21,514 nucleotides of DNA from a virus: the IMG/VR virus record IMGVR_UViG_3300011116_000799, positions 1-21,514 of that record, one strand, 5' to 3'. Shown here one piece after another: positions 11,544 to 12,943 of this stretch (positions within the stretch are counted from its first letter, which is position 1; every line of letters begins with the position of its first letter). The translations under genes were made by a program, and so were the position numbers. The notes beneath the pieces were generated by a model. The model was not told where the DNA came from, did not search any database, and saw only the letters and a list, made by a program, of their open reading frames with translations.

Positions 11544-12584
11544 ATGACAGCTTATTACAATGAGGTTGACCCCTACGCCGCGCAGTGGTTGCGCAACCTT
11601 ATCGAAGCCGGCCACATCGCTTACGGAGTGGTCGATGAACGGAGCATCGAAGATGTACGACCTGACGAAATCGCGGGATACACCCAATGTCACTTCTTCG
11701 CCGGAATCGGTGTCTGGTCGCACGCGCTTCGACGCGCAGGCTGGCCTGACGATCGACCTGTTTGGACCGGTTCCTGTCCGTGCCAACCTTTCAGCGCGGC
11801 AGGCAAAGGAGCTGGGTTTGATGACGAGCGGCACCTCTGGCCTGCGTGGTACTGGCTCATCGGCGAGTGCCGACCTCCAGTCGTCTTTGGAGAACAGGTT
11901 GCGAGTTCGGCTGTCGATCCTTGGATCGACCTTGTACACGCTGACGTGGAAGCGCTGGACTACCACTTCGGGTGTGTCCCGTTCCCGTCTGCGGGCGGTG
12001 GTGCTCCGCACATCCGCGATCGAGCTTTCTGGCTGGCCTACGCCAACGGCCGCGCTCGCCGAGAAAGGCGTGCGCACATTCGAAGGGGGCTTGATGGAAG
12101 CGATGCGCAGTCATGGTCCGGATCTGGCTGCAACGGTATGTCTGGCCGGCTGGCCGACTCCGACGGTGAGCAACGCGGAGGGATCACAGTCGTTCGCGGG
12201 ACTGAGCTCGACGGGCAAGACGCCGGACGGCCGCAAGGTTGCGGTGAGCCTGAATCACGTGGCGCAGTTCGCGGGCTGGCCGACGCCCACAACAACGGAT
12301 GCGTTGCGCAAGCCAGCGGCGCAGTTCTCGACGACGAACATCACGTTGAACCATGCAGCCGCGCTGCTAAAGGACAACCCGATGCCGGCCCGACTAACAG
12401 CTTCTGGCGAGCTGCTGACTGGCTCCTCTGCCGGGATGGAAAGTGGCGGGCGGTTGAACCCGGCGCATTCCCGTTGGCTGATGGGACTCCCGCGAGAGTG
12501 GGACGATTGCGCGCCTACGGAAACGCGATCAACGCGCAAGCCGCGAAAGTCTTCATCGAAAGCGTAATGGACTGCACCCCTTGA
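11544..12584 (+). CDS. DNA cytosine-C5 methyltransferase
   Basis: A 346-aa enzyme that would methylate cytosine C5 in DNA using S-adenosylmethionine. Conserved blocks are in the usual order: motif I FAGIG (52-56), motif [11 protein letters not shown] with catalytic Cys 80, motif VI as GEQV (116-119, Gln in place of the usual Asn), motif VIII-like HIRDR (156-160), and motif X with GNAI near residue 322. Between VIII and X lies the variable target-recognition region, with three LADSDG-like repeats (about 164, 203, 245). There is no ribosome binding site; an extended -10 sits six bases upstream. A second long gene is nested in the +1 frame from 11635 to 12567. The stop overlaps the RusA start (TTGA). 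It may protect phage DNA from host restriction. Confidence 0.9.
11635..12567 (+). CDS. Protein nested in the methyltransferase gene (+1 frame)
   Basis: A 310-aa ORF lying wholly within the methyltransferase gene in another frame of the same strand. I chose ATG 11635 because GGAG lies six bases upstream, although the frame is open from 11560. The product has features I recognise from a family of phage and prophage proteins found beside such methyltransferases. These are IDLFGPV..., [29 protein letters not shown], three GWPTPT motifs (residues 133, 172, 214), and an [16 protein letters not shown] ending (from 274) like the C-terminal segment of some phage DNA methylases. Function is not known; target recognition or partnership with the methyltransferase is a guess. 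Keeping all these blocks while the other frame keeps all its own motifs argues that both are translated. Confidence 0.7.
12031..12292 (+). repeat. Three dispersed dual-frame repeats
   Basis: Related 19-base units at 12031-12049, 12148-12166 and 12274-12292 share GGCTGGCC followed by a C-rich GAC/CCGAC part. In the methyltransferase frame they encode LAYANG, LADSDG and LADAHN; in the nested frame they encode GWPTPT each time. They are spaced 117 and 126 bases apart, both multiples of three, so both frames keep phase. Confidence 0.8.
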
Positions 12585-12943
12585 AAAACCTGACGCTTAG
12601 ACTGCCCTTCCCCCCGTCCCTGAACCGCATCTGGCGCGCGGTTCAAGGGCGCGTTGTGCTGGCGGCAGCGGCGCGCGAGTGGAAAGCGGCCGCCGTCAAT
12701 TTGCTGCCGCGCGGGCGCGTTGCCGCGCCGCTCGAAGGCCGCCTGGTCGTCACGCTGCTACTCTGCCCGCCAGCGAAATACGGCAAGCGCAAGTGGGACG
12801 TTGCGAACCGCGAGAAATTGCTCGCGGATTTCCTCACCGAACAGCGAATCTGGTTAGACGATTCGCAGATCGATACTTGGCTGATCGTGCGCGGCGAACC
12901 TTCGGACAGGGGTTATGTTGACATTTTGATATCCTCGTATTAA
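12581..12943 (+). CDS. rusA: RusA-type Holliday junction resolvase
   Basis: A 120-aa protein of the RusA family. The N-terminal LRLPFPPSLNRIWR matches the typical 'PPSLN-x-x-W' opening. The acidic active-site region is WDVANREKLLADFL followed by IWLDDSQID, giving the D-x-x-N-x-x-K and DDSQI pattern. It would cut four-way junctions formed in phage recombination or branched replicating DNA before packaging. The start is TTG overlapping the methyltransferase stop (TTGA), with no good ribosome binding site, so translation is probably coupled. A promoter for the next transcript lies inside its 3' end. Confidence 0.9.
   Translation: MKNLTLRLPFPPSLNRIWRAVQGRVVLAAAAREWKAAAVNLLPRGRVAAPLEGRLVVTLLLCPPAKYGKRKWDVANREKLLADFLTEQRIWLDDSQIDTWLIVRGEPSDRGYVDILISSY

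Follow-up and report, generated by a model that had tools for sequence, protein, structure and literature searches.

A second conserved protein in the +1 frame of a phage C5-cytosine DNA methyltransferase gene: a proposed nested target-recognition subunit

Comparative analysis indicates that positions 11544-12584 of a 21.5-kb virus record carry two conserved proteins in two reading frames of the same DNA, and we regard the dual coding of this locus as very secure. Our preferred reading, to which we assign a probability of about 0.8, is that the two products would be the subunits of one methyltransferase, with the gene for the target-recognition subunit nested in that for the catalytic subunit, a variation on the arrangement known from M.EcoHK31I. 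The whole stretch analysed, hereafter the window, comprises positions 1 to 21,514 of record IMGVR_UViG_3300011116_000799. Other genes on it encode contractile-tail components (tail sheath, baseplate), a primase-helicase, a PD-(D/E)XK/DUF2800 exonuclease, a probable ssDNA-binding protein and, directly downstream of the methyltransferase, RusA. The TTG start of this RusA-like resolvase gene (12581-12943) overlaps the methyltransferase stop codon, which suggests translational coupling. No endonuclease gene was seen adjoining the nested pair.

The catalytic chain is encoded in frame 0 and has the following features:

11544..12584, + strand: C5-cytosine DNA methyltransferase, motifs I-VIII and X, without motif IX (Pfam, PHROGs, HhaI)
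11688-11717, + strand: motif I, frame 0
11772-11795, + strand: motif IV, frame 0
11883-11906, + strand: motif VI, frame 0
12009-12023, + strand: motif VIII, frame 0
12498-12533, + strand: motif X, frame 0, near-invariant in the relatives' alignment

This open reading frame of 346 aa matches Pfam PF00145 (1.1e-9) and phrog_363 (4.3e-88), and HhaI is both its top PDB profile match and its fold match. The signatures of a C5-cytosine methyltransferase are all present (FxGxG of motif I, PCQ of IV, the Glu of VI, RxR of VIII and GN of X), and motifs I, IV, VI, VIII and X were found where an earlier reading of the sequence without database searches (the sequence-only reading) had placed them. PCQ, E117, R158 and R160 are invariant and G326-N327 near-invariant; motif VI is spelled GEQV, not ENV. 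Frame 0 does not carry the motif IX and recognition domain that PF00145 members have on one chain. AlphaFold predicts a confident catalytic core that matches HhaI, and pLDDT is below 50 at residues 192-259 and 271-291 (most of 180-290).

The +1 frame is open from an ATG at 11560 to a stop at 12567 (335 aa). Within it, we delimited the following features:

11653..12567, + strand: nested gene, 304 aa, proposed target-recognition and motif-IX subunit (phrog_1008, phrog_31772, dual-frame constraint)
11641..11655, + strand: internal ribosome site GGAG and nested-gene ATG (GGAGCATCGAAGATG), conserved in relatives, with codon bias
11785..12010, + strand: nested-protein N-terminal domain (... SRLRAV), overlapping motifs IV to VIII (near-invariant columns in 106 relatives; constraint)
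11923-11952, + strand: conserved +1 block ahead of the cassettes (motif coordinates)

The nested gene probably starts at 11653, eight bases downstream of the GGAG. The sequence-only reading had proposed an ATG served by this site and a frame of about 310 codons; the site holds, and the length is corrected to 304 aa. An ATG occupies the same place in 165 of 214 relatives. The Asp codon that makes it is GAT in 165/195 cases, compared with 45% elsewhere before G (p=8e-28), and upstream of it AGG for Arg and AGC/AGT for Ser, the codons that yield GGAG, are enriched. The conserved blocks claimed for the +1 product are likewise where they were said to be: the protein belongs to phrog_1008 (9.4e-41, covering residues 39-327) and also matches phrog_31772 (5.5e-37). 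Pfam, NCBIfam and PADLOC hold no known function for it. Modelled alone, the nested protein gave a poor structure (pLDDT 61), and a fold search with this model returned no match and was uninformative; a poor lone model is what a domain folding on its partner should give, yet is no evidence of such folding.

The length of the open +1 frame had been taken as exceeding chance. We held the methyltransferase protein fixed and resampled synonymous codons from the gene 5000 times; the +1 frame of the window stayed open in 395 of 5000 resamples (8%), with 2.2 stops expected. Openness alone is thus not significant here, and comparative evidence has to decide. This result is what one would anticipate if the +1 frame were an untranslated by-product, left open by GC-rich codon usage, DNA repeats and the conservation of the methyltransferase. 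The same explanation gains from the observation that methyltransferase constraint by itself generates some +1 profile score, with synonymous shuffles reaching a median of 38 and a maximum of 171 bits. The real genes, however, score a median of 376 bits, well above that null maximum. Because the methyltransferase sequence alone yields part of the +1 similarity, weak matches such as L387 and L388 are not secure, and very weak relatives were not relied on. Open +1 frames are also kept in phages with a GC content of 48-50%, where a comparable frame arose in 0 to 20 of 5000 resamples (0-5 for most); for AT-richer relatives the figures were 1/5000 in Paenibacillus phage Diva, 5/5000 in Bacteroides phage BKO1-TP3 and 0/5000 in L305.

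Substitution patterns at homologous loci speak against a by-product as well. At protein identities of 90+, 80s, 70s and 60s, 2.6, 11.3, 19.2 and 27.7% of the four-fold sites of the methyltransferase frame differ, and the figures for flanking genes on those contigs, in the same identity bins, are 19.0, 24.7, 39.2 and 56.9%; four-fold sites in the overlap therefore change about half as often as those of flanking genes, or less. Pairwise codon resampling at matched nucleotide distance gave a weak signal, with few alternative codons allowed, and was dropped in favour of this comparison and of site-class ratios, estimated from pairs at 85-99% identity with pair bootstraps. Over motifs I-VIII, dNN/dSN of the methyltransferase is 0.22 [0.16-0.29] and dNN/dNS of the +1 frame 0.47 [0.33-0.60]; the corresponding values are 0.78 [0.61-0.89] and 0.28 [0.13-0.44] in the variable region, and 0.20 and 0.67 [0.44-1.01] in the tail. 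For the flanking genes used as controls, the ratio is 0.19 in the gene's own frame and 0.86 [0.70-0.99] in +1. By these ratios both frames are under purifying selection, as the dual-frame check proposed by the sequence-only reading had anticipated, and in the variable region the methyltransferase frame is almost neutral and the +1 frame constrained. The variable region is where one-chain enzymes have their recognition domain, and the ratios show that here this region is encoded by the +1 frame.

The +1 frame contains a run of repeated units followed by a motif-IX signature:

12031..12147, + strand: recognition cassette 1, family F0; 53 distinct copies, identity 0.82 in +1 and 0.41 in frame 0
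12148..12273, + strand: recognition cassette 2, family F5; 16 distinct copies, identity 0.81 in +1 and 0.47 in frame 0
12274..12384, + strand: recognition cassette 3, family F2; 37 distinct copies, identity 0.70 in +1 and 0.36 in frame 0
12454..12501, + strand: signature of motif IX, read in +1; present in the +1 product of 232/271 loci

The three DNA repeats that had been noticed, with motifs in both frames and a spacing in multiples of three, are real: GWPTPT recurs at 12031, 12148 and 12274, at intervals of 117 and 126 nt. Cassette identity overall is 70-86% in +1 against 36-50% in frame 0, and the variable base is the +1 wobble position; F0 copies have nucleotide identities of 0.46/0.82/0.90 at positions 1/2/3 of the methyltransferase codons, as expected of a gene read in +1. 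Taken together, the profile scores, the four-fold sites, this cassette pattern and the open frames of AT-richer phages, all of them results on sequences, led us to reject the by-product reading, to which we attach next to no probability.

The W-x-TP cassettes, of about 35-42 residues each, lie upstream of motif IX and are shuffled between phages. The 204 proteins that contain at least two units show 191 different unit orders, where for some proteins a W.TPSGR segment near the N-terminus was counted as a unit, and none of the 204 contains one family twice. F0 alone was seen anywhere from position 1 to position 5, next to 14 left and 20 right neighbours. Cassettes were clustered greedily, single linkage having merged most of them; the candidate families F4, F8 and F16 were rejected as cassettes, being the W.TPSGR segment of the N-terminal domain. 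In these respects the cassettes resemble an exchangeable set of recognition modules and may read DNA. Whether phages rebuild an overprinted specificity subunit by shuffling its +1 cassettes, each phage thereby acquiring a different multi-sequence methylation pattern that the catalytic frame passively tolerates, we consider an evenly balanced question.

The motif-IX signature is found in the methyltransferase frame of 5 of 271 loci and is missing from that frame in the other 266. By motif patterns, 195/271 loci have exactly motifs I-VIII and X on the large chain and IX on the small chain. The counterpart of the signature in HhaI is LHPRECARVMGYPDSY (confirmed), also given for HhaI as LHPRECARVMGYP, and that in phage Diva is LNPDWVECLMGFPIGW. 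A search for a significant direct match of the nested protein to a solved enzyme found none; the assignment as motif IX draws on the short signature and on one-chain homologues, and is probable on those grounds.

The two proteins occur together throughout the family. The +1 protein was present, always in +1, in 117 of 117 loci fetched by methyltransferase queries alone, and the refuting case named by the sequence-only reading, a methyltransferase of this family beside a ruined second frame, was not found among them. A tblastn search with the +1 protein gave 200 phage records at E <= 1e-5, and among those compared the two proteins share the same place. Other searches found the pair in 214/218 loci and in 38/38 bacterial contigs, ranging from Pseudomonas and Burkholderia to Spirochaetaceae and Nitrospira bins, these having been fetched with the +1 protein; loci inside each set are kin, and the counts are not numbers of independent events. 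Phages of Proteobacteria, Firmicutes and Bacteroides have the nested pair, and a plasmid search for a restriction-linked version returned the same pair, mostly in enterobacterial records. With the synonymous-site constraint, the two-frame ratios and the start signals, this universal co-occurrence bears out the proposal of a dual-coded gene pair.

Several individual loci are also of note. In Consotaella salsifontis (L366:3915-5127), the methyltransferase has an in-frame stop in the variable region and the nested +1 frame is intact over 383 codons. Both frames are broken together in an Arsenophonus endosymbiont (L380, L385), resembling a decaying prophage pair. Gordonia phage JKSyngboy (L387) and Mycobacterium phage Fancypants (L388) have motif IX in the methyltransferase frame; the N-terminal part of the nested protein seems readable in +1 at a weak 23-27 bits, which may be partly automatic. 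Stenotrophomonas phage SBP4phi2 (L284:1782-2546) encodes a short related methyltransferase without recognisable cassettes or nested protein. BKO1-TP3 (L390:1327-2496; GC 48%), far outside Proteobacteria, has an unannotated open +1 frame of about 326 codons with the same blocks.

A fully stand-alone gene for the nested protein, for which the sequence-only reading had suggested a search, was not found; non-overlapped counterparts, in frame or on split chains, were. L330/L347 and L348 have the W.TP cassettes in frame on a single chain together with motifs IX and X. A split form is seen in L299, L328, L332 and L334: here the first chain ends after motif VIII, and a +1 chain overlapping it holds the cassettes and both IX and X. 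The nested form, with motif X kept on the first chain, is that of the window, Diva, BKO1-TP3 and phage C72C1. The single-chain family phrog_116 matches the motif IX-X part of the split second chains.

These arrangements bear on two other explanations. The +1 protein could be real and conserved but have a separate role, for example as an inhibitor, regulator or anti-restriction protein, with nothing but the DNA in common with the methyltransferase, as its own start signals and its lack of a function in the three databases would allow. Its C-terminal part, however, is the in-frame recognition and motif-IX region of the one-chain L330 and L348 and accompanies motif X in the split relatives, and frame 0 is without motif IX and nearly neutral where the recognition domain is expected; we consider a separate protein unlikely. 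Alternatively, programmed frameshifting after motif VIII could join frame 0 to +1 in a single chain, with no independent nested protein. The split relatives, in which frame 0 stops after motif VIII and +1 continues through IX and X, fit such a shift, but the +1 frame is constrained upstream of that point, over motifs IV-VIII (0.47 compared with 0.86 in controls), the nested ATG and its codon bias are conserved, and reaching motif X in the window would take a second shift back. Frameshifting is accordingly given a very low probability, clearly below that of a separate protein.

Under the preferred two-subunit reading, one DNA stretch would yield a heterodimeric C5-cytosine DNA methyltransferase. 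Frame 0 would give the catalytic chain, with the AdoMet-binding and catalytic motifs I-VIII plus motif X, and ribosomes would also initiate at the internal Shine-Dalgarno/ATG about 37 codons in, producing a +1 chain made of the N-terminal domain, the W-x-TP cassette run and the motif-IX signature. In one-chain enzymes motif IX packs against the recognition domain, and the second chain would provide this small domain (recognition and motif IX) in trans. The cassettes, exchangeable between phages, would determine the methylated sequence or sequences, so that methylation may shield phage DNA from host restriction. The sequence-only reading had left the partner as one of specificity or control; we favour specificity over control, inferring a recognition role for the nested protein from the motif-IX signature, which lies in the +1 frame, and from the recognition region, where only the +1 sequence is constrained.

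In bacteria and phages, there are few long same-strand nested gene pairs for which both proteins are backed by evidence. The present pair extends over about 300 codons and would divide labour by region, with catalysis in one frame and recognition in the other. If the two-subunit reading is true, the catalytic chain expressed alone is predicted to lack activity or specificity, and the phages offer a large natural stock of recognition cassettes that can be exchanged; the series from one chain through split to nested could reveal how such overlaps arise. Because gene callers usually keep only one frame, annotation can miss either subunit and give the other a wrong name. Public annotation is uneven: most records have the methyltransferase only, PMG1 (L006) only the +1 protein and R6L (L003) only part of it. 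Both frames are annotated in K1G (L285; ORF31/ORF30, 'Mte8-like') and Diva (L283; gp49/gp50, 'g49 internal gene'), which have the same pair; we found no further comment on this double annotation, and a literature search for the gene pair found no description. In PHROGs, phrog_363 and phrog_1008 are the same two proteins, held as two families both named 'DNA methyltransferase' without a stated link, selection test or function.

Among known systems, lambda Rz/Rz1 is a phage gene wholly nested in +1 inside a functionally partnered gene (PMC4936722). Its proteins are unrelated to the window pair and the overlap is much shorter. Multispecific phage C5 methyltransferases of the SPbeta/phi3T type have, between motifs VIII and IX, a series of recognition modules each about 40 residues long, on single chains in one frame; the phage pair has similar serial modules but uses a nested second chain. 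The small chain of M.AquI includes motif X as well, and part of the enzyme's variable region belongs to the large chain (PMC3404938). The likeness lies in a recognition region and motif IX on a second chain, and L299, L328, L332 and L334 look alike in this; the window differs in having motif X in the catalytic frame and nested genes, and IX and X together on the second chain occur only in relatives such as L299. The small-chain gene of M.EcoHK31I reportedly lies inside the large-chain gene in another frame (Lee et al. 1995). M.EcoHK31I has motifs I-VIII and X on the large chain and IX on the small chain, and it is the large chain to which its predicted recognition domain is assigned (PMC3404938). 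The phage pair departs from this last point, its constraint and several exchangeable cassettes being in the nested +1 chain, and it sits in a phage with no adjacent endonuclease seen. By motif layout it is nevertheless likened to M.EcoHK31I (and M.EaeI): as a predicted two-polypeptide C5 methyltransferase, the window pair has the same motif split.
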